NCBI GenBank assembly: GCA_905234625.1
Contig: CAJOIC010000011.1
Location: forward strand, 1 to 47,891
Length of the DNA: 47,891 nt
Origin: an uncultured Oscillospiraceae bacterium
Lineage (GTDB): Bacteria > Bacillota > Clostridia > Oscillospirales > Oscillospiraceae
Direction: 5' to 3'
This document shows positions 3 through 26,081 of this stretch, piece by piece (the stretch's first letter is position 1; each line of letters starts with the position of its first letter). The translations under genes were made by a program, and so were the position numbers. The notes beneath the pieces are model-generated. The model was not told where the DNA came from and did no database searches. It saw only the letters and a list, made by a program, of their open reading frames with translations.

Positions 3-404
3 TATTGGCGCATCAACAACGACAAGTACTTCAACTACTATCCCGGCAACGGCCCCGAGCTCGCCAAGTGGCTGATGTACGAGAAGAAGATCAAGGCCAT
101 CGCCGGCACCTACGGCGCATCCGACGCCGTCGTGTGGCATTGCCCCTGCAAGGAGCAGATGCCCTGGCTGTACAACAACTACAAGCTGGCCACCGGCCGC
201 GACATCGACGTCGATTATCCCGACTATGAGCCCTGCCACCGCCTGTTCGGTCAGCACGGCCTCATGGCCATCGAGAACGCCGGCGGCGATATCGACCAGG
301 TCACCGGCAAGCGCATGACCATCGCGGCCTTCCCCTTCCGCTGCGAGGCGGCCGACGGCGGCATGGTTCGTCTTGTTGCCTGGGAAGAGGGCACTACCTG
401 GTGA
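3..404 (+). CDS. Cyclase-family (PF04199-type) metal hydrolase, C-terminal 133 residues only
   Basis: The open frame runs in from the left edge without a start and stops at TGA 402-404. The visible tail has the shape of the cyclase/kynurenine-formamidase-like family: a His-containing segment HRLFGQHGLMAIEN, then AAFPFRCEAADGGMVRLVAW, which matches the closing 'P...GxGxPxRxxA' block of that family. The diagnostic HxGTHxDxPxH metal motif would lie upstream and cannot be checked. In this context (next to a hydroxyacyl dehydrogenase, transhydroxylases and a BKACE) the attractive candidate is dihydrophloroglucinol cyclohydrolase, which opens the ring of dihydrophloroglucinol to 3-hydroxy-5-oxohexanoate. 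The family call is moderately sure; the exact reaction is inference from context. Alternative: another cyclase-family amidohydrolase. Confidence 0.6.
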   Translation, partial: YWRINNDKYFNYYPGNGPELAKWLMYEKKIKAIAGTYGASDAVVWHCPCKEQMPWLYNNYKLATGRDIDVDYPDYEPCHRLFGQHGLMAIENAGGDIDQVTGKRMTIAAFPFRCEAADGGMVRLVAWEEGTTW

Positions 405-550
405 TTTGACGGATCTTTTTCCGTATGGCGTCACCTCATTCGGTTGACGTACCTGAAGTACGCCTTCCCTCACTCGGTTTAGCCATACGAAAAAATCTCT
501 CGTCAAATGAGGGCTTTTCCGTGTGGCGTCGTCTTGCGAAAAAATCCCTC
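403..550. repeat. Palindromic intergenic repeat element, copy A, with a truncated inner copy
   Basis: The outer arms 403-428 and 482-508 are imperfect inverted repeats (ATTTGACG...CGTATGGC against its reverse complement). The centre has a short hairpin, CGTAC-CTGAA-GTACG (about 447-461), followed by CCTTCCCTC. A second, shorter palindrome, GAGGG at 509-513 with CCCTC at 546-550, repeats the left-arm sequence (TTTTCCGTGTGGCGTC at 515-530 against the same block with one change at 417-432). A related element lies at 23539-23660. It looks like a dispersed palindromic repeat and not a gene. Confidence 0.55.
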
Positions 551-576
551 ATTACCTGAGCAACTTGTATACACAT

Positions 577-606
577 CTGCAAGCCGGAACCCTTTCCGGC
601 TTGCAG
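577..606. terminator. Perfect 12-bp hairpin before the dehydrogenase gene
   Basis: Left arm CTGCAAGCCGGA (577-588), six-base loop, right arm TCCGGCTTGCAG (595-606). There is only a weak T stretch after it (TCTT), so it may be a weak terminator for the cyclase gene or a transcript-processing/stabilising stem in the leader of the dehydrogenase mRNA. Confidence 0.5.
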
Positions 607-649
607 TCTTATGCCGAGATTGTTAATTATTAAAGAAAGAAGTGTTATC

Positions 650-1615
650 ATGAAAACGCTTGCGGATATCAAAAAGATCGCCGTCCTGGGCGCCGGCACC
701 ATGGGCCCCGGCATCGCCCAGACCTACGCCATGGGCGGCTATGCCGTCACCATGTGGACCCGGTCCGAGGCCACCCGGGAGAAGGCCAAGGCCGCCTTGC
801 GGACCCAGCTCGAGACCTTCGCGGAGGAGGGCGAGATCGAGGCGGCGGACGTGGAGCCCATCCTCGCCCGCATCGACTTTGCCATGACGGTGGAGGAAGC
901 CGTCGCCGGCGCGGACTTCATCCAGGAGACCATCGTGGAGAATCGGGACGCCAAGACCGCCCTGTACGAGCAGCTGGCGGCCTGCGTGCCCTCCGATGTG
1001 ATCATCGCCTCCAACACCTCCGCCATGAACATCTTCGAGGTGGTCCCCGAGAAGCTCCTGCCCCAGCAGATCATTTGCCATTGGTACGCGCCCCCCCAGC
1101 TCATCCCCCTGGTGGAAGTCGTGAAGAGCGAGCAGGCGCCCCAGGAGTATGCGGACATCGCCATGGAGCTCCTCAAAAAGTGCGGCAAGACCGCCGTGCT
1201 CATGAAGAAGTTCATCCGGGGCTATATCGTGAACCGGCTCCAGCAGTGCCTGAACCGCGAGGTGTTCTACCTTCTGGACAACGGCTACTGCGACGCGGAG
1301 GCCATCGACCTGGCGGCCAAGGCCAGCTTCATCCCCCGGGCCTGCGTCCTGGGGCTTGTCAAGCGCGCCGATTTCGGCGGCCTGGACATGACCGCGAACA
1401 ACTACCGCAACCATTCGTATCACATGCCCGAGCACGGGGACGATATGCCCCATGTCCTGGAGGAGCATGTGGAGCACGGCGAGCTGGGCATCAAGACCGG
1501 CCACGGCTTCTATGACTATTCCGGCATGGACATCGAGGCTCTGAAGCAGAAGCGCGACAAGCAGCTGTTCGAGATCTTCCGTCTGGAGAAGAAATTCCTG
1601 AAAGACCCCGTGTGA
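650..1615 (+). CDS. 3-hydroxyacyl-CoA dehydrogenase family protein (candidate 3-hydroxy-5-oxohexanoate dehydrogenase)
   Basis: 321 residues. The N-terminal Rossmann fold has the NAD motif LGAGTMGPGIA (residues 13-23), SNTSAMNIFE follows at 121-130, and the catalytic His-Glu pair is H144 (HWYAPPQ) and E156. The C-terminal domain has the family's RGYIVNR and GHGFYDYS blocks. It is longer than 3-hydroxybutyryl-CoA dehydrogenase (about 282). I start it at ATG 650, where the protein begins MKTLADIKKI; a longer in-frame start at 611 adds unrelated residues and overlaps the hairpin region. Family membership is firm. Because it follows a cyclase-type hydrolase and sits in a transhydroxylase island, oxidation of (S)-3-hydroxy-5-oxohexanoate to triacetate is a specific but unproven proposal; a beta-oxidation role is the alternative. 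Confidence 0.85.
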   Translation: MKTLADIKKIAVLGAGTMGPGIAQTYAMGGYAVTMWTRSEATREKAKAALRTQLETFAEEGEIEAADVEPILARIDFAMTVEEAVAGADFIQETIVENRDAKTALYEQLAACVPSDVIIASNTSAMNIFEVVPEKLLPQQIICHWYAPPQLIPLVEVVKSEQAPQEYADIAMELLKKCGKTAVLMKKFIRGYIVNRLQQCLNREVFYLLDNGYCDAEAIDLAAKASFIPRACVLGLVKRADFGGLDMTANNYRNHSYHMPEHGDDMPHVLEEHVEHGELGIKTGHGFYDYSGMDIEALKQKRDKQLFEIFRLEKKFLKDPV

Positions 1616-1624: not shown

Positions 1625-3013
1625 ATGAGTATCTCTGTCTTCGTCGGCGTCCTGGTCACGGTCGTCCTCATCCTGGGCCTGAGCGTATACTCCGGCACCA
1701 GGATGAAAAAGGGCGGCAGCCAGCTCAACGGCACGGCTCTGACCGCCGGCATCATCATGGGCACCCTGGTGGGCGGCTCGTCCACCGTGGGTACCGCCCA
1801 GCTCGCCTACAATTACGGCATGTCCGCCTGGTGGTTCACCCTGGGCGGCGGCTTGTCATGCCTTGTGCTGGCTCTGGTCTTCGTGGGACCCCTGCGGCAT
1901 AACGGCGGACGCACTCTCATCGGCATGGTGGAGCACGAGTTCGGTCCCGCCGCGGGCCTGTCCGCCTCCATCCTGAACACCGTGGGCACCTTCATAAACG
2001 TCATATCCCAGATGATCGCGGCGTCGGCGGTGCTGGCGGTGCTGTTCCCGAAGATGGGCCTTGTGTGGGAGCTTATCATCTCCATGGCCTTCATGATCGC
2101 CTATGTGGTCATCGGCGGCCGGAAGGGCGCCGGCATGGTGGGCATCCTGAAGCTGGTGCTTCTGTATATCGCCATGATCGGCAGCGGTGTGATGGTGCTG
2201 AGGATGACCGGCGGCGTGGCGGGGTTCACGGACATGGTCCGGGGCATCGACAACCCGGACGGGGTGGATTTCTTCAGCCTGTTCGCCCGGGGCGCCGGAA
2301 CGGACCTCGGCGCGGGGGTGTCGCTGCTTCTCGGCGTGCTGACCACCCAGACCTACGCCCAGGCGGTGCTCTCCGCCAAGTCCGACGCCTCCGCCCGGGC
2401 GGGAGCCCTGGTCTCCACCTTCCTCATCCCGCCCATCGGCATCGGCGGCATCCTGGTGGGGCTGTATATGCGGGCGCACTTCCCCGGCATCGCCGCGAAA
2501 ACGGCTCTGACCTCCTTTGTCACCATGTATATGCCCGGGGCTTTGGGCGGCATCGTCCTGGGCACCCTGTTCATTGCCGTGGTGGGCACGGGGGCGGGAC
2601 TGGCGCTCGGCATGAGCTTCGTGCTGAACGAGGATATCCTGGACCGCTTCACCCACAGGTTCGACGGCCCCCAGAAGCAGCGGCTCATGGGCCGGGTGTG
2701 GATGGTGCTGGTGCTTGCGCTGGCCTGCGTGCTGTCCATGGGAAGCCTCGGGGACACCATCCTGTCCTTCGCCTTCATGTCCATGGGTTTCCGGGCGGCG
2801 GCGGTGTTCGCGTCCCTGTGCGCGGCGCTGTTCTTCCCGGGGAAGGTGGACCGCCGCTGGGCGGTGGCCTCCATCATCACGGGTCCCGTGGCGGTGCTGG
2901 CGGGGAAACTCATGGGCCTGCCCTTCGACTCCCTGTTTTTGGGCATCGGCGTGGGGATCGTCCTGATCCTCATAGGCGCCGCCGTCCGGGCACGCCGGAC
3001 CGGGCAAGCTTGA
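1625..3013 (+). CDS. Sodium:solute symporter family transporter
   Basis: 462 residues, strongly hydrophobic, about 12-13 membrane segments, starting 9 bp after the dehydrogenase stop and so probably in the same operon. The early segment VGGSSTVGTAQLAYNYGMSA is typical of the SSS family (cation/solute symporters such as PanF/PutP relatives). The substrate cannot be read from sequence. Given its position between the aromatic-catabolism enzymes and a LysR regulator, uptake of an aromatic acid or polyphenol fragment (gallate, for example) driven by Na+ is the natural inference. The ribosome site is weak (GTGATCTGATTTT precedes the ATG), which suggests translational coupling to the upstream gene. 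Confidence 0.85.
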   Translation: MSISVFVGVLVTVVLILGLSVYSGTRMKKGGSQLNGTALTAGIIMGTLVGGSSTVGTAQLAYNYGMSAWWFTLGGGLSCLVLALVFVGPLRHNGGRTLIGMVEHEFGPAAGLSASILNTVGTFINVISQMIAASAVLAVLFPKMGLVWELIISMAFMIAYVVIGGRKGAGMVGILKLVLLYIAMIGSGVMVLRMTGGVAGFTDMVRGIDNPDGVDFFSLFARGAGTDLGAGVSLLLGVLTTQTYAQAVLSAKSDASARAGALVSTFLIPPIGIGGILVGLYMRAHFPGIAAKTALTSFVTMYMPGALGGIVLGTLFIAVVGTGAGLALGMSFVLNEDILDRFTHRFDGPQKQRLMGRVWMVLVLALACVLSMGSLGDTILSFAFMSMGFRAAAVFASLCAALFFPGKVDRRWAVASIITGPVAVLAGKLMGLPFDSLFLGIGVGIVLILIGAAVRARRTGQA

Positions 3014-3037
3014 TTTTGCCGCGCTGTCTGCTATAAT
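3010..3037 (+). promoter_or_regulatory. Sigma-A-type promoter of the LysR gene
   Basis: TTGATT (3010-3015), 16-bp spacer, TATAAT (3032-3037). The -35 box overlaps the TGA stop of the symporter, so the regulator has its own transcript even though it follows the operon closely. Confidence 0.75.
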
Positions 3038-3061
3038 GGACGCAACGGAGGAAAACGTATC

Positions 3062-3949
3062 ATGCTCAACGAGGTGTCGATCCGCTGTTTTCTGACCCTG
3101 GCCCAGACGCTCAGCTTCACGGAGACGGCGAAAATTCGATACATGACCCAGCAGTCTGTCAGCAAGTACATCGCCAAAATGGAGGAGGACCTGGGCTTCC
3201 AGCTGTTCATCCGCACCCATCACTATGTGAAGCTGACGAAGGCCGGGGAGGCGTTCTACGCCTTTTTCAAGGAGTTCAGCGAGAGGTTCGAGGACGTATC
3301 CGAGCAGACCAAGAACTACTACGACAGCATGTTCAACTCCCTCCACATCGGCTATCTGGAGTGGCTGGAGATCTCCGCCAGCATCGGCAAGGCGCTGAAG
3401 GTCCTCCAGGGGACGAACCCCGCCCTCCGGTTCGTGGGGGAGAAGCACCCTCAGTATGAGCTGAACGAGCTCTTCATGAACCGGAAGCTTGACCTCATCA
3501 TCACGTATAAGGAATTCGCGCCCAACGGGACCGGCCTCAAGAAGCTGAAGATCCAGGAGTCCCCCCTGGTGCTGCTGGTGTCCCCGGACCACCCCAAGGC
3601 CACGGACGCCGCCACGGTGGACGATTTCCGGCACGAGCCCTTCATCAAGGCCGCCTCCAGCCGGGAGACCCTGTCCGAGAGCAAGAACCGCGCCAGACGC
3701 CAGTGCCGGGAGCTTGGCTTCACCCCGTCGGAGATCATGATCTCCCCGAACCTGGAGTCCGCGTACATGGCGGCGGAGTTCGGCCAGGGGGTGCTGGTCT
3801 CCACCATGCTCTCCCGCATGAGCCTCCACTCGGAGCTCAAATGCTACGATATCGGCGTGTCGGAGGATCTTCTCTGCTTCTGGCACGAGGACGAGGAAAA
3901 ACCCGCAGTGGCGGCCTTTGCTTCGGTGCTGGAGCAGGTGCACAACTGA
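3062..3949 (+). CDS. LysR-family transcriptional regulator
   Basis: 295 residues. The N-terminal winged helix-turn-helix (residues about 3-62: VSIRCFLTLAQTLSFTETAK, then MTQQSVSKYIAKMEEDLGF) is the standard LTTR DNA-binding domain, followed by a periplasmic-binding-like effector domain (about 90-290). The start ATG 3062 has an upstream GGAGGAAAA. It has its own promoter and ends in a strong hairpin shared with the convergent thioesterase. LTTRs usually control neighbouring catabolic genes in response to a pathway intermediate, so the symporter/dehydrogenase operon is the likely target; the inducer is unknown. Confidence 0.92.
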   Translation: MLNEVSIRCFLTLAQTLSFTETAKIRYMTQQSVSKYIAKMEEDLGFQLFIRTHHYVKLTKAGEAFYAFFKEFSERFEDVSEQTKNYYDSMFNSLHIGYLEWLEISASIGKALKVLQGTNPALRFVGEKHPQYELNELFMNRKLDLIITYKEFAPNGTGLKKLKIQESPLVLLVSPDHPKATDAATVDDFRHEPFIKAASSRETLSESKNRARRQCRELGFTPSEIMISPNLESAYMAAEFGQGVLVSTMLSRMSLHSELKCYDIGVSEDLLCFWHEDEEKPAVAAFASVLEQVHN

Positions 3950-4007: not shown

Positions 4008-4424
4008 CTAGACCTCCGGCTCCACCGCGGCGGTGAGCTTTGCGTACACCTCCGGGAGGGCGGCCTCCATGTCCAGGCTCCTGTGGTCCGGGCCGGTCCA
4101 GATGTGGAAGGTATCGCACACGTTCACGAGCTTTCCCTCGCAGAAGGTCTCGTAGTGCAGCCGCAGCTTCTTCGGCGCGCAGAAGGTGGCCTTTGTCCGG
4201 ATGAGGACGGTCCCGGGGTAGGATACCGCCGCCTTGTATTGGACGTGCAGGTCTACCATGGGCGGGTCGATGCCGCGCTCGTGCATGGCGCTGTATCCGA
4301 AGCCCAGCTTCTCGAAATAGTCCATCCGGGCGATCTCGTACCACACGGGATATACCGCGTGGTGGACGATGCTCATGGGGTCGCAGTCGGGGTAACGGAC
4401 GGCGACGGCGGTCTCAGATATCAT
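4008..4424 (-). CDS. Acyl-CoA thioesterase, hotdog fold (YbgC/FadM-like)
   Basis: 138 residues, close to the usual length. The N-terminal block VRYPDCDPMSIVHHAVYPVW is the signature of the 4-hydroxybenzoyl-CoA thioesterase/YbgC group; D15 aligns with the catalytic Asp and is followed by the conserved HHxxY. Start ATG at 4424 is preceded by AAGGAGG. It hydrolyses an acyl- or aroyl-CoA thioester, substrate unknown. It lies just downstream of the transporter pseudogene but a terminator hairpin (4442-4477) separates them, so it probably relies on read-through or an unseen promoter. Confidence 0.85.
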   Translation of the reverse strand: MISETAVAVRYPDCDPMSIVHHAVYPVWYEIARMDYFEKLGFGYSAMHERGIDPPMVDLHVQYKAAVSYPGTVLIRTKATFCAPKKLRLHYETFCEGKLVNVCDTFHIWTGPDHRSLDMEAALPEVYAKLTAAVEPEV

Positions 4425-4487: not shown

Positions 4488-5709
4488 TTACGCGCTCCGC
4501 TTTTTCAGGTAGGAGTTTATGTACATCATGAGGAACACGGGGATGATGGCGGTAATGGCGCCCATGATGAAGGTGGAGTTGATGCCGGTGGCGGTCATGG
4601 TGGACACGTCCACGCTGGCGTTCAGGAAGGTGGCGGAGACCCAGTTGAAGAAGATGGACGAGAAGCCCAGGGCCAGCATGGCGACGCCGTAGTTGGTGCC
4701 GGAGTTCTTCGGCCCGAAGAGGTCGGTGGACAGCGCCGCGTTCAGCGCGGAGGGCCCGCCGTAGGCAAAGGCGATGATGGCGATGGTGGCGAAGTAGCCG
4801 AAGCCGCCGATGAAGGTCATGAGGATGGCGCCGAGGAGCGTCAGCCCGCAGAGGACATACATGGTGTTGGAACGGCCGATCTTATCGGACAGGGAGGCCA
4901 TGATGAGACGGCCCGCGGCGTTCGTGATGCCGGTGAAGGACACGCAGGCGATGGCCATGGACTCCGTCAGGCCCCGGACCATGCCCAGGTCCTTGATGAG
5001 GGGGACGCAGAGGTTCCAGGTGCCGTTGATGAAGAAGATGGAGAAGAACAGGGCCCAGAAGGCGGGGAGCTTGATGGCCTGGCCCAGGGTGAAGTTCACA
5101 TCGCCGGACACGGTCTTGGCGGGGAGGTTCAGACCCTGCAGGTACTCCTCGTCGGGCAGGGAGATGAACAGGCAGGCGACGAAGCCGGCCACGGCGAACA
5201 CGATGCCCAGGGTCAGGAACACCGGGACGAAGTTCACGATGCCCTCCGCGTTCCGCCACTGGTTCATGAGCATGTTCGATACCGGGGTGAACACCACGGT
5301 GGACAGTCCGAAGGCGGAGCAGGCGAGGCCGGAGGCCAGGCCGCGCTTATGGGGCAGCCACTTCTGGATGCAGGAGATGCAGGCGCCGTAGGCAAAGCCC
5401 GAGCCCAGACCCGCCATCACGGCGTAGGTCAGGTAGAACAGGCCGGGGGACTTCACGAAGGCAGTGAGGATGACGCCCACGGAGAAAAGAGCGACGCCCA
5501 GGATGCAGGTGAGCTTGGGGCCCTTCTTGTCGTTGATGACGCCGCCGATGAGGTTGCCGAAGACGAAGGCGAAGATCATGTAGGACGACCCAGCCGTAGG
5601 CGGCCACGATGTTGGAGCGGAAGGCGCTCCATAGATACAGGATGCCGACGCACAGCTGCACGACCAGACACGCGATAATGGAGACCCAGGGATTTTTCCG
5701 GTTTTTCAC
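4488..5709 (-). pseudogene. OFA-family MFS transporter broken by a frameshift with a small internal deletion
   Basis: Two frames make one protein. Residues 1-40, starting at GTG 5709 with an upstream AGAGGAA, read MKNRKNPWVSIIACLVVQLC and continue to AAYGW; the rest, from about 5588 down to 4488, continues SSYMIFAFVFGNLIGG with the remaining membrane segments. The break is at 5586-5592. Compared with the intact OFA protein at 29096-30295, about 8 residues between the Trp and the next helix are missing, and the lost length is not a multiple of three. OFA proteins are oxalate/formate-antiporter relatives carrying organic anions. Either this is a recent pseudogene or the assembly lost about 23 or 26 bases. 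The reading frame is otherwise well kept, with no internal stops, which favours a very recent event or an assembly error. Confidence 0.75.
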
Positions 5710-5989: not shown

Positions 5990-7039
5990 TTACTCCTCCA
6001 GCAGCATCAGCGCCTCGTCCGGGAAGCGGAGGAGGAGCCGGCCCTTCGGCAGCGCCGCATATTCCTTTTTGGTAACGGCCCATTCGAACGGTTTCCCGTC
6101 AAAGCCCGGGCGGCGCAGGAATACGACATATTCGAAGGGATCCTCGAGGACGGATACGACCTCCATCTGGTATGTGTTTTCGCCCGGAGCGTCGGCCAGC
6201 TCCGCGTAGTGCCGCCGCAGACCGGCGATGTCTCCGGTCTTCTCGCCGCGGACGGACAGCTCCATGCCCCAGTCGTCGGCGGTGAAGACCGTGCGTCCGT
6301 TTTCGTGCCGCAGATGCGATACGGCGCTGAAATTCTTGCATCCGGTGAGCATGGCGGCGGTGAGAGTGCCGGGATCACGGAACAGCTCGTGCTTCTCGCC
6401 GATGGCGTCGATCTGTCCGGCGTTGTAAACGGCGATGCTGTCCGCCATGCGGAACACCTCGTCCCGGCTGTGGCTGACGAGCAGCGTCGTGCCGCCGAAA
6501 TCGCGCAGCACGGCCGTCACCTCCCGTTCCATGCGGTCCCGCAGGTGGGAGTCGAGGGCGGAGAAGGGCTCGTCGAGCATGAGCAGCTCCGGGCGTCCGA
6601 CCATGATGCGGGCGAGCGCCGCCCGCTGCTGCTGTCCGCCGGAGAGCTCGGAGGGGAGACGGTCCTCGAGTCCCTGCAGCTGGAAGCGCTCCGCCGCCTC
6701 CTCTGCGGCAGCACGGCGCTGCGCCCTGGTGCCCGTGCGGACGCCGGTCATGATGTTCTGCAGTACGGTCATCGTGGGGAAGAGAGCGTAATTCTGGAAC
6801 AGCAGGCCCACATGCCGCTTCTGCGGCGGGAGGTTGATCCCGTGCTCGCTGTCAAAGAATACCCGTCCGTTCACGGCGATGTATCCGCTGTCGGGCGTGA
6901 TGATGCCGGCGATCGCCCGGAGGGTAAGGCTTTTGCCGCAGCCGGAGCCGCCCAGCAGGGCCAGGATCTCGTCTCCGGCGGTGAAGGCCACGTCAAGCTT
7001 AAAGGAACCGAGATCTTTTTTTATTACAGCTTCGATCAT
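5990..7039 (-). CDS. modC: Molybdate ABC transporter, ATP-binding subunit
   Basis: 349 residues. Walker A GGSGCGKS (30-37), Q-loop FQNYALFP, signature LSGGQQQR, Walker B LLMLDEP and the H-switch VSH are all present, so the ATPase looks active. About 110 residues follow the nucleotide-binding domain, in the place of the usual regulatory TOBE/Mop region. It lies 3 bp after modB, in one transcription unit. Molybdate import fits the two molybdoenzymes and the Moco operon downstream; tungstate is the main alternative substrate. Confidence 0.88.
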   Translation of the reverse strand: MIEAVIKKDLGSFKLDVAFTAGDEILALLGGSGCGKSLTLRAIAGIITPDSGYIAVNGRVFFDSEHGINLPPQKRHVGLLFQNYALFPTMTVLQNIMTGVRTGTRAQRRAAAEEAAERFQLQGLEDRLPSELSGGQQQRAALARIMVGRPELLMLDEPFSALDSHLRDRMEREVTAVLRDFGGTTLLVSHSRDEVFRMADSIAVYNAGQIDAIGEKHELFRDPGTLTAAMLTGCKNFSAVSHLRHENGRTVFTADDWGMELSVRGEKTGDIAGLRRHYAELADAPGENTYQMEVVSVLEDPFEYVVFLRRPGFDGKPFEWAVTKKEYAALPKGRLLLRFPDEALMLLEE

Positions 7040-7042: not shown

Positions 7043-7744
7043 TCACCAGCGCCTTTCCCGTTTTCCGCCCGTCGTAAGGTTCATGAGCACCACGATGCCG
7101 AAGGCGATGAGCATCACGACCGCGACCCAGATGCCCGCGGTCACATAGTCTCCGTTCTGGACGATGGCGGTCGCGATCTTCTGCGAGATCGTGCCGGTCT
7201 TGCCGGCGATGTTCCCGGCGAGCATGCTCGTCGCGCCGTACTCGCCCAGCGCCCGGGCGAAGGTCAGGATCGCGCCGGAGACGATGCCCGGACGCGCCGT
7301 GGGGATGACGACGCGCCGGAAGATCTCGCCCTCCGACATGCCGAGGGTGCGCCCGGCGTAGATGAGGTTTTCGTCGACCTGCTCGAAGGCGGCCCGGGCG
7401 TTGCGGTACATGAGCGGGAAGGCGATGACGCTCGCCGCAATGATACAGCCGAGCCAGGTCTGTACGACCTTGATCCCCATCTCGTGGTACAGATAGGAGC
7501 CGAAGGGCCGCCGCAGACTGAAGATCAGCAGCAGGAAAAAGCCCGCTACCGTCGGCGGCAGGACCATGGGCAGCGTCAGAAAGCCGTCGATCACGGCGCG
7601 GGCGCGGCTGCCCAGCCGGAGTACGCCGCGGGCGGCCCACAGACCGAGAAAGAAGCACAGGATCGTCGCCACGACGCCCGTCTTGAGGGAGATCCACAGC
7701 GGCGACCAGTCGAGGGAGCGAAAAATGTCCAGAAGCTCCTGCAT
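7043..7744 (-). CDS. modB: Molybdate ABC transporter, permease subunit
   Basis: 233 residues with about five membrane segments and the ABC permease EAA-like loop (DENLIYAGRTLGMSEGEIFR). The segment TLPMVLPPTVAGFFLLL is typical of ModB. I start it at ATG 7744 (MQELLDIF), because GAGGTGAT lies 6-7 bases upstream; a GTG at 7753 is also in frame but would overlap that ribosome site. It is followed 3 bp later by modC. Confidence 0.9.
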   Translation of the reverse strand: MQELLDIFRSLDWSPLWISLKTGVVATILCFFLGLWAARGVLRLGSRARAVIDGFLTLPMVLPPTVAGFFLLLIFSLRRPFGSYLYHEMGIKVVQTWLGCIIAASVIAFPLMYRNARAAFEQVDENLIYAGRTLGMSEGEIFRRVVIPTARPGIVSGAILTFARALGEYGATSMLAGNIAGKTGTISQKIATAIVQNGDYVTAGIWVAVVMLIAFGIVVLMNLTTGGKRERRW

Positions 7745-7767
7745 GCATATCACCTCACGTTTTCTTC

Positions 7768-8835: not shown

Positions 8836-8910
8836 TTGGATATACTTCCTTTCTTTGTTTTCCGCCCTCATTATAGTTGTCCTGCAGGGCGTTTTTCAAT
8901 GAGGAAAAAA

Positions 8911-12776: not shown

Positions 12777-12840
12777 CGATAGGTTGTTACGGAAAATGAA
12801 ATGTCCTGCATTATCAAGGCTTTGCGGGTTTCGAGAAGGG

Positions 12841-12906: not shown

Positions 12907-12949
12907 TTAATAATAGAGTAGACACGCCCCGAAAGGAGGGGAACGCGGC

Positions 12950-13405: not shown

Positions 13406-13440
13406 AATCCATTCTCTGACAAAATGATAGGAGGTAGAGG

Positions 13441-13638: not shown

Positions 13639-13654
13639 GAGGGAGGAACGACCG

Positions 13655-14119: not shown

Positions 14120-14131
14120 GGAGGAACGGCC

Positions 14132-14440: not shown

Positions 14441-14452
14441 GGAGGGAACACC

Positions 14453-18595: not shown

Positions 18596-18634
18596 ACACA
18601 CTATTCATTTTGATTGAGAAAGGAAGCGATACCG

Positions 18635-19885
18635 ATGGAACTTCGAAACGCTGTGATCGTGGACGCCTGCCGCACCGCCGTCGGCAAGATGGGCGGAGCG
18701 TGCAAGCCCCTGTCCGCTCTGGACATGGCCTGCGCCACGATGAAAGGAAACCTGGACCGCACAGGCATCGACCCCGCCGTCATCGACGAGGTCATCCTCG
18801 GTCAGTGCCGCCAGACCTCCGATGAGCCCAACATCGCCCGCGTGGCGGCGCTGAAGGTCGGCATCCCCGACAAAGCCTCCGCCCATACTGTCATGCGCCA
18901 GTGCGCCTCCGGCATGACCGCTGTGCAGAACGGCGCCATGCAGATCATGACCGGCGTGTCCGACTGCGTTCTCGCGGGCGGCACGGAGAGCATGTCCAAT
19001 GCCGTGTTCTACGTCCGGGGCGCCCGCTGGGGCCTCGGCACCGGCAACACCACCTTCGTGGACGCGCTGACCGAGGGCCAGTTCAAGAGCCAGCCCGAGG
19101 AGAAATACGGCTCCTATAACATGGGCGCGACCGCCGAGCGCGTGGCCCAGGAGCTCGGCATCACCCGCGAGGAGCAGGACGCCTTCTCCCTCGAGAGCCA
19201 GAGACGGGCCATCGCCGCCATCGACTCCGGCCGCTTCAAGGACGAGATCATCCCCATGGTCATCCCCCAGGGCCGGAAAAAGGACCCCATCGTCTTTGAC
19301 ACCGACGAGTTCCCCAACCGCACGACGAACGAGGAGAAGATGGCGAAATTGAAGCCTGTCTTCAACATCGAGGTCCACGAGGACGGCAGGATGTACAACT
19401 CCAAGGAGCTCACCGGTACCGTCACCGCCGGGTCCTCCTCCGGACGCAACGACGGCGCTTCCTCCATGCTCCTTATGAGCGAGGAGAAGGCCGCGGAGTG
19501 CGGCCTCAAGCCCATCGCGAAGATCATCGGTATGGGGCAGAGCGGCTGCGATCCCCAGCAGATGGGTCTCGGCCCGGTGTACGCCGTGCCCAAGGCGCTC
19601 AAAAACGCCGGCCTCACCATCGACGATATCCAGCTCATTGAGCTCAACGAGGCCTTCGCCGCCCAGTCCCTCGGCTGCATAAAGCTGCTCGGCTGGGAGG
19701 ACAAGATGGACATCATCAACGTCAACGGCGGCGCCATCGCCCTGGGTCATCCCGTGGGCTCCTCCGGCTGCCGCATCCTCGTGACCCTCATCCATGAGAT
19801 GAAAAAGCGCGGCCTGAAGTATGGCCTCGCCACCCTGTGCATCGCGGGCGGCATGGGCCAGGCAACTGTTATTGAGATGCTTTAA
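18635..19885 (+). CDS. Thiolase (acetyl-CoA C-acetyltransferase family)
   Basis: 416 residues. The acylated nucleophile is C90 (VMRQCASGM), with NEAF at 338-341, H372 in GHPVGSSG and the second catalytic Cys C402 (LCIAGGMG). I start at ATG 18635 because AAAGGAAG lies 8 bp upstream; a TTG at 18614 would precede that site. Thiolases split acetoacetyl-CoA to two acetyl-CoA or run in reverse. Placed between TH2 and a beta-keto-acid cleavage enzyme, cleaving the acetoacetyl-CoA produced from ring-derived triacetate is the fitting role; general butyrate-pathway use is the alternative. Confidence 0.92.
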   Translation: MELRNAVIVDACRTAVGKMGGACKPLSALDMACATMKGNLDRTGIDPAVIDEVILGQCRQTSDEPNIARVAALKVGIPDKASAHTVMRQCASGMTAVQNGAMQIMTGVSDCVLAGGTESMSNAVFYVRGARWGLGTGNTTFVDALTEGQFKSQPEEKYGSYNMGATAERVAQELGITREEQDAFSLESQRRAIAAIDSGRFKDEIIPMVIPQGRKKDPIVFDTDEFPNRTTNEEKMAKLKPVFNIEVHEDGRMYNSKELTGTVTAGSSSGRNDGASSMLLMSEEKAAECGLKPIAKIIGMGQSGCDPQQMGLGPVYAVPKALKNAGLTIDDIQLIELNEAFAAQSLGCIKLLGWEDKMDIINVNGGAIALGHPVGSSGCRILVTLIHEMKKRGLKYGLATLCIAGGMGQATVIEML

Positions 19886-19910: not shown

Positions 19911-20072
19911 TGAGGGTATGCGCTCCGCTCAGCGCACTCGCTGGCGCTCGCACGTTCCCTCCGCGATAAGTATTTTTTCCGACGTACACGCCGCCGGAAA
20001 TAATGATACAACTCTATTCGCGTCTGCGGACGCGAACTCTGTGAGACAAATCAAGAAAGGAAAGTGATACCC

Positions 20073-20984
20073 ATGTCCAAGTCCAATAAGATCATCATCC
20101 AGTGCTGCATCTGCGGCGCCGGCACCAAGAAGTCCCAGGCGCCCACCGTGCCCTACACCCCCGAGGAGATCGCCCGGGAGGTCGTCGCCGTCGCGAAGGC
20201 CGGCGCCTCCGTCGCCCACATCCACGTCCGCGAGGACAAGGAAGTGAACGGCAAGATGGAGATCGGCTATAAATCCATGAGCCTCCAGAAGTTCACCGAG
20301 GCCGTGGAGCTCTCCCGCAAGTACTGCGCCGAGGAGGGCCTCGACATCATCATCAACCTCACCACCTCCGGCGGCGAGTACGAGGACTTCAAGCGCCTGC
20401 AGCACCTGAGCGCCCTCTTCGACCCGAACACCATCAACTGGGCCAACTCCTATATCTTCGAGAACAGCCCCCGCTTCCTGAACCTGCTGGCGCAGGAGGT
20501 CGTGGCTACCGACGTGAAGCCCGAGTTCGAGGTCTTTGATACCGGCCACATCGACTCCGTCATGTATTATGTAAACAAGCATGGCATCCCCAAGCCCCCC
20601 CACATCCAGTTCATCATGAACGTGGGCGGCTCCATGCCCGGCACGGCGGAAAACCTGGCGTTCCTCGTGAATAAGCTGCCCGAGGGGGCCACCTGGTCCG
20701 TCTCCGGCATTGGCCGGGCGCACATGCCCATGATGCTCGCCGGCCTGGCGCTGGGCTGCGACGGTCTGCGCGTGGGTCTTGAGGACAACGTCATGTACGG
20801 CAAGGACGCAGACGGCAACAAGATCATCGCCACGAACGTGATGCTCGTCGAGCGCGCGGTGCAGCTGGCGAAGCTCGCCGGGCGCGAGATCGCCACGGCG
20901 GACGAGGCCCGCGAGATCCTGGGCATCACCCGCCACTGCCTGCGCGACGGCAAGACCGAGCCGGTGAACATCACCGCGAAATGA
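20073..20984 (+). CDS. Beta-keto acid cleavage enzyme, BKACE/DUF849 family (candidate triacetate acetoacetate-lyase)
   Basis: 303 residues, TIM-barrel BKACE. The zinc ligands are H49 and H51 (VAHIHVRE) and E237 with D238 (RVGLEDNV), equivalent to those of the 3-keto-5-aminohexanoate cleavage enzyme Kce; the IGRAHMPM and NVGGSMPG blocks are also family features. It condenses a beta-keto acid with acetyl-CoA and releases acetoacetate plus a new CoA ester. Start ATG 20073 (MSKSNKIII) follows AGGAAAG; GTG 20064 is too close to that site. BKACE members differ in substrate; here triacetate (3,5-dioxohexanoate) fits the pathway, but other beta-keto acids are not excluded. Confidence 0.88.
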   Translation: MSKSNKIIIQCCICGAGTKKSQAPTVPYTPEEIAREVVAVAKAGASVAHIHVREDKEVNGKMEIGYKSMSLQKFTEAVELSRKYCAEEGLDIIINLTTSGGEYEDFKRLQHLSALFDPNTINWANSYIFENSPRFLNLLAQEVVATDVKPEFEVFDTGHIDSVMYYVNKHGIPKPPHIQFIMNVGGSMPGTAENLAFLVNKLPEGATWSVSGIGRAHMPMMLAGLALGCDGLRVGLEDNVMYGKDADGNKIIATNVMLVERAVQLAKLAGREIATADEAREILGITRHCLRDGKTEPVNITAK

Positions 20985-21085: not shown

Positions 21086-21095
21086 CCAATAACGA

Positions 21096-21206
21096 CTTCT
21101 CCGAGCTGCGGCGGCTAAAGCACCTGCCATGCCGCCGCAGCCGCGGTCGAATGACCGCCGGGGTGGCGCGGGAAACCGCTCCGCCTTCACGTCTGAAAAG
21201 GAGAGC
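21096..21206 (+). ncRNA. Moco (molybdenum cofactor) riboswitch aptamer
   Basis: Not coding. Closing helix: CTTCTCC (21096-21102) against GGAGA near 21200-21205. Next is a perfect 11-bp stem GCTGCGGCGGC (21105-21115) / GCCGCCGCAGC (21131-21141) with loop TAAAGCACCTGCCAT, a small stem CGGTC (21143-21147) / GACCG (21152-21156), and a stem capped by a GNRA tetraloop, GCGG-GAAA-CCGC (21168-21179). CTCCGAG, AAAGCACCTGCC and GGGAAACCGCTCCGCC match what I remember of the Moco RNA motif, and the downstream genes are exactly its known targets. High Moco would be expected to stop transcription at the terminator that follows. Confidence 0.8.
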
Positions 21207-21226
21207 GACACCCGGGTATCATGGGG

Positions 21227-21260
21227 GCAGCTCTGTCTTTTCGGAGCTGCTTCATTTTTT
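21227..21260 (+). terminator. Riboswitch expression-platform terminator
   Basis: GCAGCTC (21227-21233) / GAGCTGC (21244-21250), extendable by two pairs, followed by TTCATTTTTTT. It lies between the aptamer and the moeA ribosome site (AAGGGG 21265-21270), with no gene upstream to end, so it is a regulated terminator. Confidence 0.8.
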
Positions 21261-21278
21261 TCGGAAGGGGCGATGTCC

Positions 21279-22499
21279 ATGGAAACGAATATCGAATACA
21301 AGGCGGCGCGGGAGCTGCTGCTGGAGCGGGTGAAGCCCATGCCCGCGGAGCCGGCGTCCATCGACGCGGCTCGGCTCGTCGGCGCGGTGCTGGGGGAGGA
21401 TATCACCGCCTCCGAGAACGTCCCGCCCTTCGACCGCTCGCCCTTCGATGGCTATGCCTTCCGCGCCGCGGACACGGCGGGGGCGGACGCCGATCACCCC
21501 GTCACCCTGCGCATCCTCGAGGAGATCCCCGCCGGGACCATGTGGACCCGGACGGTGACGGAGGGGACCGCGGCAAAGATCCTCACCGGCGCGCCCATCC
21601 CCCCGGGCGCGGACGCCGTCACGAAGTATGAGGAGACGGAGTTCACGGACGAGCAGGTCACGATCTTCCGCGCCTTCTCCGCCGGGGAGAACATCGTCCC
21701 GGAGGGGGAGGACGTGATGCGCGGCGACCTGCTGGCGGCGAAGGGCACGGTCATCGACCCGGCGCTGCTGGGGGTCCTGGCGGCGCAGCATATGACAATT
21801 CCCCTGGTGTATCGCAGGCCCACGGTGGCGGTCATCACCACCGGCAGCGAGCTTGCGGCGGCGGATGAGGCCCTCTCCGGCGGCAGGATCGTGAATACGA
21901 ACATCTACACCTTCCGCGCCGAGGCGGAGAAGCTCGGCTGCGCCTGCGTGACGCATACCGCCTCCGACGATCCCGGGGAGATCGCCGGGACGCTCCTAAA
22001 GGCGCTGGAAACGGCGGATATGGTCATCACCACCGGCGGCGTCTCCGTGGGGGATTACGACTATACCCCGGAGGCCATGGACCGCGCGGGCGTCGAGACC
22101 TTCATCCGCACCCTGCGCCTCAAGCCCGGCGGCGCGTCGGCCTACGGGGTGAAGGACGGAAGGCTCGTCTGCGGCCTGTCCGGCAACCCCGCGTCGGCCC
22201 TGACGAATTACTACGCCGTGGTCCTGCCCGCCCTGCGGAAGCTCTGCGGCTATAAGGACCCGCGGCTGACGGAGATCACCGTTTCCCTGGCGGAGGATTT
22301 CGGAAAGAAAAGTCCCAAGACCCGCCTCATCCGCGGCACCCTGGACCTTGCGGACGGCACCGCGCGGATGCATGTGTCCCACGCCCAGGGCAACGGCGTC
22401 CTGCACAGCCTTTCCGGCTGCGACCTGCTGGCGGAGATCCCCGCCGGAAGCGGCAAACTCCCTGCCGGGACGCAGCTGAGGGCCTATCTCATCCCGTAA
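21279..22499 (+). CDS. moeA: Molybdopterin molybdenumtransferase
   Basis: 406 residues, normal for MoeA. PPFDRSPFDGYAFRAADT near the N-terminus, GAPIPPGADAV in the middle and the MoCF domain with VITTGGVSVGDYDY and LSGNPAS are all diagnostic. I choose ATG 21279 over ATG 21273, six bases upstream, because AAGGGG lies 8 bases before it and only 2 bases before the other. It inserts molybdate into adenylylated molybdopterin. First gene of a six-gene operon controlled by the riboswitch. Confidence 0.93.
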   Translation: METNIEYKAARELLLERVKPMPAEPASIDAARLVGAVLGEDITASENVPPFDRSPFDGYAFRAADTAGADADHPVTLRILEEIPAGTMWTRTVTEGTAAKILTGAPIPPGADAVTKYEETEFTDEQVTIFRAFSAGENIVPEGEDVMRGDLLAAKGTVIDPALLGVLAAQHMTIPLVYRRPTVAVITTGSELAAADEALSGGRIVNTNIYTFRAEAEKLGCACVTHTASDDPGEIAGTLLKALETADMVITTGGVSVGDYDYTPEAMDRAGVETFIRTLRLKPGGASAYGVKDGRLVCGLSGNPASALTNYYAVVLPALRKLCGYKDPRLTEITVSLAEDFGKKSPKTRLIRGTLDLADGTARMHVSHAQGNGVLHSLSGCDLLAEIPAGSGKLPAGTQLRAYLIP

Positions 22500-22512: not shown

Positions 22513-23538
22513 ATGAAAAAGGTAAAAACAGAGGAGGCCGTTGGTCTGACCCTCTGCCACGATATCACCGAGGTCCGGGACGGCTTCAAGGGTCGGGCGT
22601 TCCAGCGGGGCCACATCGTCACCCCGGAGGACATCCCCCACCTGCTGGACCTGGGAAAGAAGCACCTGTTCATCTGGGAGGAGAACGCCGGGGAGATCCA
22701 CGAGGAGGACGCCGCCCTGCGTCTGGCGGCGCTCGCCCCCATGGAAAACGCCGTCTACACCGGTCCGTCCGAGGGCAAAATGACCCTGACGGCGATGGAG
22801 GACGGCCTGTTCCGGGTGAACCGCCCCCTGCTGAACGAGATAAACCGCATCGGCGACATCACCATCGTCACCCTGCCGGACCACTACCCGGTGCAAAAGG
22901 GCATGAAGCTTGCCGGCGAGCGCATCATCCCGCTGGTCTGCCCGGTCAGCGAGATCGAGAAGGCGGAGGAGCTGGTCCGCGCGTCGGACACGCCCCTCAT
23001 GGAGCTTCTGCCGTACCGGAAGGACCTGCCCGTGGGCATCATCGTCACGGGGAGCGAGGTGTATTCCGGACGCATCCGGGACAAATTCGAGCCCGTGGTC
23101 CGGGCGAAGGTGGCCTCCTTCGGGGCCAATGTCCTGGGCTGCATCTTCTGCGACGACTATATCGAGATGCTGGACGCCGCCATCGCCAAGTGGCGGGAGC
23201 GCGGCGCGAAGCTCATCGTTATGACCGGGGGCATGAGCGTGGACCCGGACGACCTCACCGTCACCGCCATCCGCGGCAGCGGCGCGGAGGTCGTCACCCA
23301 GGGCGTACCCGCCCAGCCGGGGAACATGTTCACCGTGGCGTATCTGGACGATATCACCATCCTGGGGGTCCCCGGCGCGGCCATCCACGCGAAGACCACC
23401 ATGCTGGACGTGGTGCTGCCCCAGGTGTTCGCCGGACAGCGCTTCACCTATGAGGAGCTTCGGAATATGGGCGCGGGCGGCCTGTGCCAGAACTGCTCGG
23501 AATGCCATTTCCCCAACTGTACCTTTGGTTTGTATTGA
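22513..23538 (+). CDS. MoCF-domain molybdopterin-binding protein with a Cys-rich tail
   Basis: 341 residues, ATG 22513, ribosome site AAGGAGGAG overlapping the moeA stop. The N-terminal about 165 residues are MoeA-like in arrangement, followed by a MoaB/MogA-type molybdopterin-binding domain (VGIIVTGSEVYSGRIRDKFE; KLIVMTGGMSVDPDDLT). The last residues carry four Cys, C325/C328/C331/C336, in LCQNCSECHFPNCTFG, a plausible metal or Fe-S site. Such proteins are common in anaerobic Firmicutes next to moeA, but their exact step is not settled; a role in Mo versus W handling or Moco delivery is inference. Confidence 0.8.
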   Translation: MKKVKTEEAVGLTLCHDITEVRDGFKGRAFQRGHIVTPEDIPHLLDLGKKHLFIWEENAGEIHEEDAALRLAALAPMENAVYTGPSEGKMTLTAMEDGLFRVNRPLLNEINRIGDITIVTLPDHYPVQKGMKLAGERIIPLVCPVSEIEKAEELVRASDTPLMELLPYRKDLPVGIIVTGSEVYSGRIRDKFEPVVRAKVASFGANVLGCIFCDDYIEMLDAAIAKWRERGAKLIVMTGGMSVDPDDLTVTAIRGSGAEVVTQGVPAQPGNMFTVAYLDDITILGVPGAAIHAKTTMLDVVLPQVFAGQRFTYEELRNMGAGGLCQNCSECHFPNCTFGLY

Positions 23539-24622: not shown

Positions 24623-24625
24623 ACT

Positions 24626-25114
24626 ATGGCGATAGCGAATGATTTTACCCATTTCGACGATCGGGGCAGCGCCCGCATGGTGGACGTGGGCGGCAAGGCG
24701 GACACGAAGCGCGTCGCCGTGGCGGCGGGCCGGGTGCTGGTGAATCGGAGGACCTTCGATCTCATCCGCACCGGCGGCGTGAAGAAGGGGGACGTGCTCA
24801 CCGTGGCCCAGGTGGCGGGCATCATGGGCGCCAAGCGCACCCCGGAGCTCATCCCGATGTGCCATCCTGTGGCTCTGTCCGGCGTGGATCTGAACCTGTA
24901 TCTCAACGAGGAGATGCTCTCCGTGGAGATCGAGGCAACGGCCTCCTGCACGGGACCCACGGGGGTGGAGATGGAGGCCCTGACGGCGGTGACTGCGGCC
25001 GCCCTAACGGTGTATGATATGTGCAAGGCCGTCCAGCGTGACATGGTCATCGACGATATACGGCTCTTGAAAAAATCCGGCGGACAGTCGGGCGACTTTG
25101 TGAGGGAGGATTGA
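24626..25114 (+). CDS. moaC: Cyclic pyranopterin monophosphate synthase
   Basis: 162 residues. MVDVGGKADTKRVAVA, the PMCHP motif and the GVEMEALTAV...DMCKAV block are standard MoaC. It converts cyclo-GTP to cyclic pyranopterin monophosphate and acts as a hexamer. Tightly packed between moaA (3-bp gap) and the MogA/MoaB gene (3-bp gap). The next enzymes, moaD/moaE, are not in this window. Confidence 0.95.
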   Translation: MAIANDFTHFDDRGSARMVDVGGKADTKRVAVAAGRVLVNRRTFDLIRTGGVKKGDVLTVAQVAGIMGAKRTPELIPMCHPVALSGVDLNLYLNEEMLSVEIEATASCTGPTGVEMEALTAVTAAALTVYDMCKAVQRDMVIDDIRLLKKSGGQSGDFVRED

Positions 25115-25117
25115 AGG

Positions 25118-25648
25118 ATGGAATACACGGCGGCGGTCATCACGGTCAGCGACAAGGGCAGCAGAGGCGAGCGGGAGGATACCTCCGGCCCGGCGCTCGT
25201 GACGATCCTGGAGGAAAACGGCTATACCGTGACCTACACGGCCATGGTGCCGGACGAGATAGAGGACATCCGGCGGGAGCTTCTTCTGTGCGCGGACGAG
25301 AAAAAGCTCTGCCTGGTGCTCACCACCGGCGGCACGGGCTTTTCTCCCCGGGACGTGACCCCGGAGGCCACGGAGGGCGTTCTCGAAAAGCGTACCCCCG
25401 GCATCCCGGAGGCCATGCGGGCGGAATCCATGCGCATCACGCCCATGGGCTGCCTCTCCCGGGAGACGGCGGGCATCCGGGGGGAGACCCTCATCATCAA
25501 CCTCCCCGGCAGCAAAAAGGCCTCCACGGAGAATTTTTCCGCGGTGGTGAAGCCTGTGCGCCACGGCATCGAGATCCTGCGGGGCGTCAGTCACGACTGC
25601 GCCGACCTGCATCACCATCATCACGGGGAGGAGCATCATCATGGCTAA
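25118..25648 (+). CDS. MogA/MoaB-type molybdopterin adenylyltransferase with a His-rich C-terminus
   Basis: 176 residues, one MoCF domain: AAVITVSDKGSRGEREDTSG, LTTGGTGFSPRDVTPEAT and NLPGSKKA are the usual blocks of the enzyme that adenylylates molybdopterin before MoeA acts. The last about 14 residues are unusual: five His in a row at 165-169, then GEE and three more His at 173-175, a likely divalent-metal site. The tail's CATCATCAT DNA contains the start of the MOSC gene (8-nt overlap). Whether it is the mogA or moaB orthologue cannot be decided by eye. Confidence 0.9.
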   Translation: MEYTAAVITVSDKGSRGEREDTSGPALVTILEENGYTVTYTAMVPDEIEDIRRELLLCADEKKLCLVLTTGGTGFSPRDVTPEATEGVLEKRTPGIPEAMRAESMRITPMGCLSRETAGIRGETLIINLPGSKKASTENFSAVVKPVRHGIEILRGVSHDCADLHHHHHGEEHHHG

Positions 25649-26081
25649 GGTATTGGCGGTCTGCGTCAGCGAGGTCCGGGGCATCCAGAAGCACCCCGTC
25701 CCGGAGGCGGAGCTGCGGAAGGACCACGGCATCGTGGGGGACGCCCACGCAGGGACCTGGCACCGGCAGGTGTCGCTTTTGGGCATCGACAGCGTGGAGA
25801 AGCTCCAGGAAAAGCTGGACGCCATCCGCCTGAAGCCGGGGGACTTCGCGGAGAACATCCTGGTGGAGGGCATGAAGGTGTACGAGCTGCCCGTTGGCAC
25901 GCGGCTGCGCGTGGGCACGGCCCTGTGCGAGGTGACCCAGATCGGCAAGGAGTGCCACCAGGACTGCGCCATCCGCAAGGCGGCGGGGGACTGCGTCATG
26001 CCCCGGGAGGGCATTTTCGTGAAGGTCCTGGAGGATGGGACCGTGCGCCCCGGCGACGCCGTGGAGGTCGTGGAAGCGTAA
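25641..26081 (+). CDS. MOSC-domain protein
   Basis: 146 residues, ATG 25641 inside the end of the previous gene. The MOSC fold is recognised by GIVGDAHAGTWHRQVSLL, LKPGDFAENILVEG and the Cys region KECHQDCAIRKAAGDCVMPR. MOSC proteins handle sulfur or the Mo centre during or after cofactor synthesis; small stand-alone forms at the end of Moco operons are common, their exact reaction often unknown. A strong terminator follows, ending the operon. Confidence 0.9.
   Translation: MAKVLAVCVSEVRGIQKHPVPEAELRKDHGIVGDAHAGTWHRQVSLLGIDSVEKLQEKLDAIRLKPGDFAENILVEGMKVYELPVGTRLRVGTALCEVTQIGKECHQDCAIRKAAGDCVMPREGIFVKVLEDGTVRPGDAVEVVEA

Follow-up and report, generated by a model that had tools for sequence, protein, structure and literature searches.

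We asked whether a gene island on a contig from an uncultured Oscillospiraceae bacterium encodes an anaerobic route for degrading trihydroxybenzenes that is joined to its own molybdenum supply, as a preliminary description of this DNA had proposed. The window analyzed here is the whole of contig C11 (CAJOIC010000011.1; 47,891 bp), part of an 82%-complete metagenome-assembled genome (MAG) in 118 contigs that we call G000. Relatives are coded as genomes (G) and loci (L); G327 is a congener, and G273 belongs to another genus. Comparisons used a panel of 150 genomes of the family, searched protein by protein with the same set each time. From left to right, the island begins with the C-terminal piece of a ring-opening cyclase (dihydrophloroglucinol cyclohydrolase, DPGC), a dehydrogenase gene of the TfD type, an SSF symporter and a LysR regulator, followed on the minus strand by a 4HBT thioesterase, an MFS transporter and ModCBA. 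Next come the large and small subunits of a first transhydroxylase-type molybdoenzyme (TH1), four small genes, both subunits of a second such enzyme (TH2), a thiolase and a BKACE gene. A molybdenum cofactor (Moco) riboswitch then leads into moeA, a second MoCF gene, moaA, moaC, mogA and a MOSC gene. Pfam, NCBIfam and Rfam matches, and for the cyclase piece full-length homologues, confirmed all of the genes listed in the preliminary description at the same positions (Table 1). We read the island as a fermentative module for pyrogallol-type trihydroxybenzenes and assign this reading a probability of roughly 0.78.

The two molybdoenzymes were compared with AthLS, the transhydroxylase of PDB entry 4v4c, which we take to come from Pelobacter acidigallici. 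Both large subunits matched the AhtL-like/Molybdopterin Pfam families, and both small subunits combine Fer4_11 and CarboxypepD_reg domains. TH2 is 41% identical to AthL and TH1 is 34% identical. In a tree of 57 rows, with one 23% row left out, TH2, a third group (TH3) and AthL fell on one side and TH1 on the other (SH-aLRT 100). All 23 TH2 rows retain His144, Asp174, Ser175 and Tyr404, the residues to which we ascribe active-site roles in AthL. TH1 keeps the His, Asp and Ser equivalents in all 20 rows with letters, Tyr404 is replaced by Ile, Arg or Val (21 of 21 rows), and Tyr152 is replaced by Pro or Ala (20 of 20). Because it belongs to the AthL clade and retains these residues, TH2 fits a pyrogallol-phloroglucinol transhydroxylase, and hydroxyl transfer is the predicted reaction. 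TH1 fits a related enzyme with a changed pocket and putatively another substrate.

Alternatively, the molybdoenzymes could be dehydroxylases or hydroxylases of other polyphenols that merely neighbor a phloroglucinol pathway fed by flavonoids. TH1 does lack two AthL active-site residues, and flavonoids can yield phloroglucinol through phloretin hydrolase, according to passages of PMC10470551. The phloretin-hydrolase family is strong in G222, G246 and G264; it gives only weak matches in G000 (best 44.8 bits) and none in G327. Gut catechol dehydroxylases are likewise bis(molybdopterin guanine dinucleotide) (bis-MGD) enzymes that act on polyphenols in gut bacteria, but the available part of PMC7028382 describes acetylene hydratase as their nearest kin and sets them apart from pyrogallol hydroxytransferase, whereas TH1 and TH2 are nearest AthL among solved structures. 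We rejected a catechol dehydroxylase identity because matches to AthL far exceed those to acetylene hydratase (686 vs 37 bits for TH2 and 455 vs 55 for TH1), a comparison made by solved-structure scores, the tree having held no dehydroxylase sequence. We consider the dehydroxylase or hydroxylase alternative unlikely and favor a role for TH2 within the trihydroxybenzene pathway.

The gene content of relatives links these enzymes to phloroglucinol breakdown. The cyclase occurs in 37 of the 150 genomes at about 70% identity or more, a count that includes contig-end fragments (for example in G280, G292, G339, G346 and G368) and excludes matches of about 40% or less (G055, G085 twice and a second match in G291). 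TH1 (E up to 1e-200) is present in 34 of these 37 genomes and in 9 of the 113 cyclase-negative ones. The corresponding counts are 34 and 11 for TH2/TH3-type enzymes (E up to 1e-80), and 26 and 7 for the ordinary phloroglucinol reductase (PGR; at least 58% identity, with the G314 PGR counted from a contig-end fragment). Fisher values for these counts are descriptive only because the genomes are related. Among the best 80 of 116 cyclase loci found, many of them cut by contig ends, TfD accompanies the cyclase in 69, BKACE in 60, a CoA transferase in 47, a PGR-like short-chain dehydrogenase/reductase (SDR; at least 44%) in 34, an AthL-type large subunit (at least 45%) in 21, and two or more molybdenum-supply genes in 2. 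Within the loci listed, the cyclase family also appears at 77-83% identity in genomes labelled Synergistota, Spirochaetes and Deltaproteobacteria. The DPGC neighborhood of PGR, TfD and triacetate acetoacetate-lyase (TAL) was counted as present; the window itself holds TfD and BKACE and no PGR.

Gene order points the same way. The published set (PGR, cyclase, TfD, BKACE and thiolase) adjoins AthLS-type pairs in G222, G246, G264 and Sporobacter termitidis DSM 10068, which supports the proposed anaerobic breakdown of trihydroxybenzenes joined to molybdate import and Moco formation. The G222 genes run TH large subunit, TH small subunit, thiolase, PGR-like SDR, divergent regulator, cyclase, TfD and BKACE. 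G273 repeats the order of the window (TH1-TH2-thiolase-BKACE-Moco operon), and a single G353 contig carries the Moco operon, two other open reading frames (ORFs) and then regulator-cyclase-TfD. Since the island genes co-occur and keep their order in other genera, their grouping is not due to chance. The statement that no unrelated genes lie between them holds for the most part, the exceptions being the 4HBT thioesterase, the MFS transporter, a NUDIX-like gene and three small ORFs (12950-14968) without a known family. These interspersed genes recur beside the same island genes in some relatives.

The steps carried out by the cyclase, TfD, TAL and thiolase are known from Clostridium scatologenes (passages of PMC10470551). 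Searched alone, the 133-residue cyclase piece gave no Pfam or NCBIfam match and nothing useful in the PDB; we identified it because full-length homologues in relatives match it (Table 1). In the TfD-type protein, the catalytic Ser, His and Asn are kept and the CoA-contact residues Lys56 and Asn221 are lost, as judged from an alignment with one Hbd-like protein whose gene adjoins an acyl-CoA-dehydrogenase-like ORF. Residue numbers were carried over to this alignment on what we presume to be the Hbd numbering. The same retention and loss are stated for the C. scatologenes enzyme (CsTfD), and the TAL of that species (CsTAL) has Trp in place of Glu14 of KCE (PMC10470551, in part).

A search with a full-length homologue located the N-terminal part of the cyclase on another contig of the same genome (C39:25-423, minus strand). 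The C39 piece corresponds to residues 1-133 and the C11 piece to residues 169-299 of the homologue. Both match one orthologue in G273, at 128/133 and 133/133 residues; G273 is the closest of four genomes compared for the N-terminal part and ties with L239 among eight for the C-terminal part. These matches make it most likely that C39 comes before C11, the two being separated within the gene by roughly 0.1 kb. Outward of the cyclase, C39 carries a divergent regulator that is 54% identical to a MerR-type regulator of G222, as in relatives. The N-terminal part contains HAATHCDAPNH, an instance of the pattern H..TH.D.P.H that we take to be the metal-binding motif of these cyclases. Trp20 and Tyr22 of DPGC replace an Ile/Leu pair of isatin hydrolase (PMC10470551, in part). 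At these two sites, located by position counting without the C. scatologenes DPGC sequence, the Trp is conserved and the second residue is Trp, not Tyr.

The cyclase gene is a break or split point of MAG contigs in G000, G280, G292, G339, G346 and G368. Repeated breaks in this gene would fit near-identical copies common to co-resident strains.

A contig that starts inside a gene, at a position where several MAGs break, could raise the suspicion that assembly or binning has joined unrelated pieces. The same gene order occurs in other genomes, however, and the ParC protein encoded on the contig is closest to that of congener G327 (82%), which fits correct binning and led us to reject mis-binning. 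An artefact of this kind is barely credible, and we continue to treat the island as a genuine unit of G000.

The island genes and ParC differ in their nearest relatives. G327 has the closest ParC of 14 other genomes searched, and the G273 protein is 64% identical. G273 is closer than G327 for the TH1 large subunit (95 vs 81%), the TH2 large subunit (94 vs 88%), TfD (91 vs 81%) and the C-terminal cyclase piece (100 vs 69%). The window and G273 pair in the molybdoenzyme tree for both enzymes (the window TH2 is row L056), and in the TfD tree a pairing of the window with G327 was rejected (p-AU 1.1e-5, approximately unbiased test) in a test framed after the identities had been seen. Third-position identity to G273 is 0.65-0.72 for the cyclase piece and both large subunits, against 0.60 in ParC. 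Since third positions are almost as diverged as those of ParC, we rejected a recent transfer from G273; any exchange would be old at best. None of the 50 window frames given to Pfam matched a mobility gene, and the window contains no tRNA. An old horizontal exchange of island genes is likely. The label of transferable module finds support only in part: some gene trees are at odds with ParC, and neither the third positions nor the scan for mobility genes points to it.

The predicted fold pairs the 3' part of the Moco aptamer with the 5' arm of the terminator-like hairpin downstream, consistent with two alternative folds that exclude each other and with feedback control by termination. We read the moeA start downstream of the riboswitch; a longer ORF from 21129 would overlap the aptamer. 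Of the 14 loci whose TH2 is at least 75% identical, some truncated at contig ends, four (in G273, G292, G353 and G270) have a Moco operon of identical gene content after BKACE, and all four have an RF01055 riboswitch. In G314 (L078:10437-10578) and G320 (L084:14649-14786), a Moco aptamer immediately precedes the gene that opens the TH2 operon and is homologous to window ORF 12950-13405, so that it stands at the genes of the molybdoenzyme itself and not at those for Moco synthesis. An Rfam E-value scan found no second Moco aptamer in window positions 12650-14500. In two Oscillospiraceae-type loci (L242:6591-16335 and L116:10907-19998), the cyclase and TfD adjoin ModBC and Moco genes that belong to a different lineage (35-54%), an arrangement that carries two Moco aptamers in L242 and one in G320:C27. 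ModBC and both TH1 subunits form one run in L224. The presence of other-lineage molybdenum genes beside cyclase and TfD suggests that molybdenum supply was joined to cyclase clusters more than once. The linkage recurs but is variable.

The preliminary description predicted a phloroglucinol reductase upstream of base 1. C39 instead has the cyclase N-terminus followed by the divergent MerR-type regulator, and no PGR is labelled in its first 20 kb. We did not find an ordinary PGR-type SDR in G000 or in G327. A looser search found an insertion-bearing PGR-like SDR of about 295-300 residues in several genomes that lack the ordinary PGR. As a full-length protein of at least 72% identity, this variant occurs in 7 of 150 genomes, including G327. 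All seven are among the 11 cyclase-positive genomes without ordinary PGR, and the variant is found in 0 of the 26 with ordinary PGR and 0 of the 113 cyclase-negative genomes. In an SDR tree of 64 rows, with one fragment left out, the variant falls among PGR rows in a 47-row fork and is sister (100/100) to an SDR of G085. That SDR adjoins BKACE-, thiolase-, CoA-transferase-, MFS- and TfD-like genes, as does its counterpart in G312. In G327, a second small operon (L138:191-3169) combines the variant, at 2267-3169 on the minus strand, with TfD-like (33%) and BKACE-like (38%) genes. In L224, from a Lachnospiraceae MAG, the variant belongs to a cluster that also holds ModBC, TH1, thiolase, cyclase, TfD, BKACE, CoA transferase and symporter genes. 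The 60 listed of 275 PDB matches do not include the PGR structure cited in PMC10470551. The variant SDR is a candidate phloroglucinol reductase of G327.

A number of observations weigh against the pathway as proposed or against parts of it. Neither form of the reductase turned up in the 82%-complete G000, where the search for the variant extended to E = 0.001 (best match 30%); G268, G339 and G373 also have neither form, making 4 of 37 cyclase-positive genomes. G346, counted as PGR-negative at the 58% threshold, has a 50% PGR-like gene in its cyclase cluster in addition to the variant. Support for the 47-row PGR fork is 82/99, below the 95/80 mark, and there are long branches elsewhere in the tree. 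No pathway-like neighbor of the variant is labelled in G270, G292, G298, G346 or G353, its only such neighbor in G273 is a BKACE-like gene about 2 kb away, and the stretches seen around the related SDRs (55-56%) of G285 and G291:C14 show no pathway neighbor. The BKACE protein has lost the amine-binding Glu of KCE, with Gly in its place (the Glu14 column being assigned on the assumption of a 6-residue tag in 2y7d), and lacks the diagnostic Trp of CsTAL; it is a TAL candidate only, not a proven TAL. A UbiD-type decarboxylase was not found in G000 or G327, and is present in 3 of 9 genomes (G273, G353 and G246). No residue test supports any particular substrate for TH1. In G297 (L082) and G332 (L083, two), Moco aptamers are found in the vicinity of TH2 but not immediately ahead of its operon. 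As for exchange with the G273 lineage, the TH2 small subunit has 87% identity to G327 against 83% to G273, and the Moco genes share no more than 68-81% identity with their G273 counterparts.

If the missing reductase is taken at face value, the organism might not reduce phloroglucinol at all, and partner bacteria would supply dihydrophloroglucinol or a different ring-reduced substrate. The lack of any PGR-clade enzyme in G000 and the four genomes with neither form at the thresholds used are consistent with this idea. Against it, G000 is only 82% complete, and its 97%-complete congener G327 carries the variant next to genes resembling TfD and BKACE. We regard it as highly improbable and retain the trihydroxybenzene module with a reductase encoded elsewhere. 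The preliminary description went too far in stating that the window covers everything but the reductase: the CoA transferase present in 47 of the 80 named cyclase loci is not seen in the window, nor was a decarboxylase of the UbiD type found in G000. Pyrogallol may be external or made from gallate in the cell.

Our model for the module, which would turn tannin-derived pyrogallol into phloroglucinol and the ring of the latter into short acids, is as follows. TH2, a bis-MGD molybdenum enzyme of the AthLS type, would convert pyrogallol to phloroglucinol by hydroxyl transfer, as its clade and residues suggest. An NADPH-dependent reductase encoded elsewhere would then produce dihydrophloroglucinol, the divergent insertion-bearing PGR being the candidate in the congener. 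By homology and context, the cyclase is predicted to open the ring, TfD to oxidize 3-hydroxy-5-oxohexanoate to triacetate, and BKACE to split triacetate with acetyl-CoA that the thiolase would feed. For TH1, the most likely substrate would be a further polyhydroxybenzene within this route, for example hydroxyhydroquinone or the tetrahydroxybenzene cosubstrate; this is the weakest step. ModABC would import molybdate. Moco would come from the moeA operon, controlled by a riboswitch that senses the cofactor and, once it is plentiful, probably ends transcription at the 21224-21253 terminator.

A broader interpretation is more tentative, and we put it at somewhat less than even odds. It holds that a gut Oscillospiraceae lineage has a two-molybdoenzyme trihydroxybenzene pathway in which TH1 represents a new class of transhydroxylase-like enzymes, associated with phloroglucinol clusters in several phyla and acting on a different hydroxybenzene. 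The insertion-bearing SDR, encoded mostly at a locus apart, would have taken the place of the ring reductase. Moco supply would be built in, and the riboswitch that in some relatives precedes the transhydroxylase operon itself would restrict production of the enzyme to a permissive cofactor state.

Table 1. Features of the island in the window, with the matches that identify them.
Feature	Position	Strand	Evidence
DPGC-type cyclase, C-terminal 133 residues	3-404	+	81% and 76% to full-length homologues
(S)-3-hydroxy-5-oxohexanoate dehydrogenase-type gene (TfD)	653-1615	+	3HCDH Pfam; residues as CsTfD
Sodium:solute symporter family transporter	1625-3013	+	PF00474; follows DPGC/TfD in relatives too
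LysR-type regulator	3062-3949	+	PF00126/PF03466; syntenic in L239, L240, L245
4HBT-type thioesterase	4008-4424	-	PF13279; present in DPGC clusters L239 and L266 too
MFS transporter, lactate/oxalate-formate type	4488-5579	-	PF07690; NCBIfam matches below cut-off; translation
ModC-like ABC ATPase	5990-7039	-	PF00005; TIGR02142 197.8 bits, below cut-off of 285
ModB molybdate permease	7043-7753	-	TIGR02141 191.6 bits, over cut-off of 182.6
ModA molybdate-binding protein	7825-8871	-	TIGR01256 113.6 bits, over cut-off of 62.5
TH1 large subunit, bis-MGD molybdoenzyme, sister clade to AthL clade	9195-11936	+	best PDB match AthL 4v4c, 455 bits
TH1 small subunit, 4Fe-4S and transthyretin-like domains	11936-12757	+	PF13247 and PF13620 (ORF from 11834); start from translation
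Conserved 151-residue ORF heading TH2 operon	12950-13405	+	homologue in 13/14 loci with TH2 at least 75%, 0/3 with TH2 65-67%
NUDIX-like gene	13577-14119	+	PF00293 28.2 bits, cut-off 21.1; upstream of TH2 in relatives
Conserved ORF of about 100 residues, TH2 operon	14132-14440	+	47-69% identity in G273, G327, G292, G320
Conserved 171-residue ORF directly upstream of TH2	14453-14968	+	14/14 loci with TH2 at least 75%, 0/3 at 65-67%
TH2 large subunit, pyrogallol-phloroglucinol transhydroxylase-type	14983-17682	+	AthL 4v4c, 686 bits; AthL clade
TH2 small subunit, 4Fe-4S and transthyretin-like domains	17698-18561	+	PF13247 and PF13620
Thiolase	18614-19885	+	PF00108/PF02803; TIGR01930 over cut-off
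BKACE, TAL candidate	20064-20984	+	PF05853 251 bits
Moco (molybdenum/tungsten) riboswitch aptamer	21087-21219	+	RF01055 84.8 bits, gathering score 36
Intrinsic-terminator-like hairpin 3' of aptamer	21224-21253	+	12 pairs and T tract; 1 found vs 0.6 expected in shuffles
moeA	21273-22499	+	PF03453/PF00994/PF03454; start read from sequence downstream of riboswitch
Second MoCF-domain (MoeA/MogA-like) gene	22513-23538	+	PF00994
moaA	23678-24622	+	PF04055/PF06463
moaC	24626-25114	+	PF01967
mogA/moaB	25118-25648	+	PF00994
MOSC-domain protein	25641-26081	+	PF03473

The 151-, approximately 100- and 171-residue ORFs heading the TH2 operon have no known family, and a single-sequence structure model of the 171-residue protein had a mean predicted local distance difference test (pLDDT) score of 51.8. 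The MFS gene (window 4488-5709) seems frame-shifted, with the N-terminus and first transmembrane segment in another frame, through either a real change or an assembly error. Ordinary genes lie to the right of the island, among them a MerR-type protein, an antiporter-family gene led by a lysine riboswitch and a topoisomerase pair. The lysine riboswitch (32048-32219, minus strand, 92 bits) precedes the Na+/H+ antiporter-family gene (30436-32040), which is possibly a lysine transporter.

We compared the window with known systems. It shares the cyclase, dehydrogenase (with its TfD residues), BKACE, thiolase, transporter and regulator with the C. scatologenes cluster of PGR, DPGC, TfD and TAL (PMC10470551, in part). 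Unlike that cluster, it adds two AthLS-type molybdoenzymes, ModABC and a Moco operon, has no linked PGR and encodes a BKACE without the CsTAL Trp. TH2 shares its clade, the kept residues and a small subunit with Fe-S and transthyretin-like domains with the AthLS that we attribute to P. acidigallici, but the window has its own small genes upstream of TH2, and TH1 forms a second clade with a changed pocket. S. termitidis DSM 10068 (L216) has a TH2-type pair, thiolase, PGR, MerR, cyclase, TfD, BKACE, CoA transferase and LysR genes within about 21 kb; PGR is linked there, whereas no molybdenum-supply gene is labelled in the stretch seen. This species grows on methoxylated aromatics via O-demethylation and ring cleavage (PMC4585845, in part). 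As a member of RF01055, the window aptamer stands before moeA with a terminator-like hairpin, and those of G314 and G320 stand in front of the gene that opens the TH2 operon. Anaerobic wetland MAGs express PGR and pgthAB, and phloroglucinol degradation genes occur in 57 MAGs from 13 phyla; the available passages of that source describe no gene-cluster linkage, molybdenum supply, TH1 or variant reductase (PMC12203004). The window thus contains a known pathway in a new arrangement, in which the molybdenum-supply linkage, the second molybdoenzyme and the unusual separate ring reductase look new. Literature titles and abstract openings, with subscription journals mostly outside the search, yielded no description of the linkage or of the insertion-bearing reductase.

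Phloroglucinol breakdown can act as a hydrogen sink. In steers dosed with phloroglucinol while methanogenesis was inhibited, expelled H2 was lower and fermentation shifted toward acetate (PMC5633678, in part). The analysis makes the role of TH1, the reductase used and direct cofactor-sensing control of a catabolic molybdoenzyme testable, and the prediction of a missing reductase can be tested as well. As a marker set, the cyclase, TfD, BKACE, TH1/TH2 and molybdenum-supply genes flag uncultured gut bacteria that may ferment tannin rings, not merely modify them.

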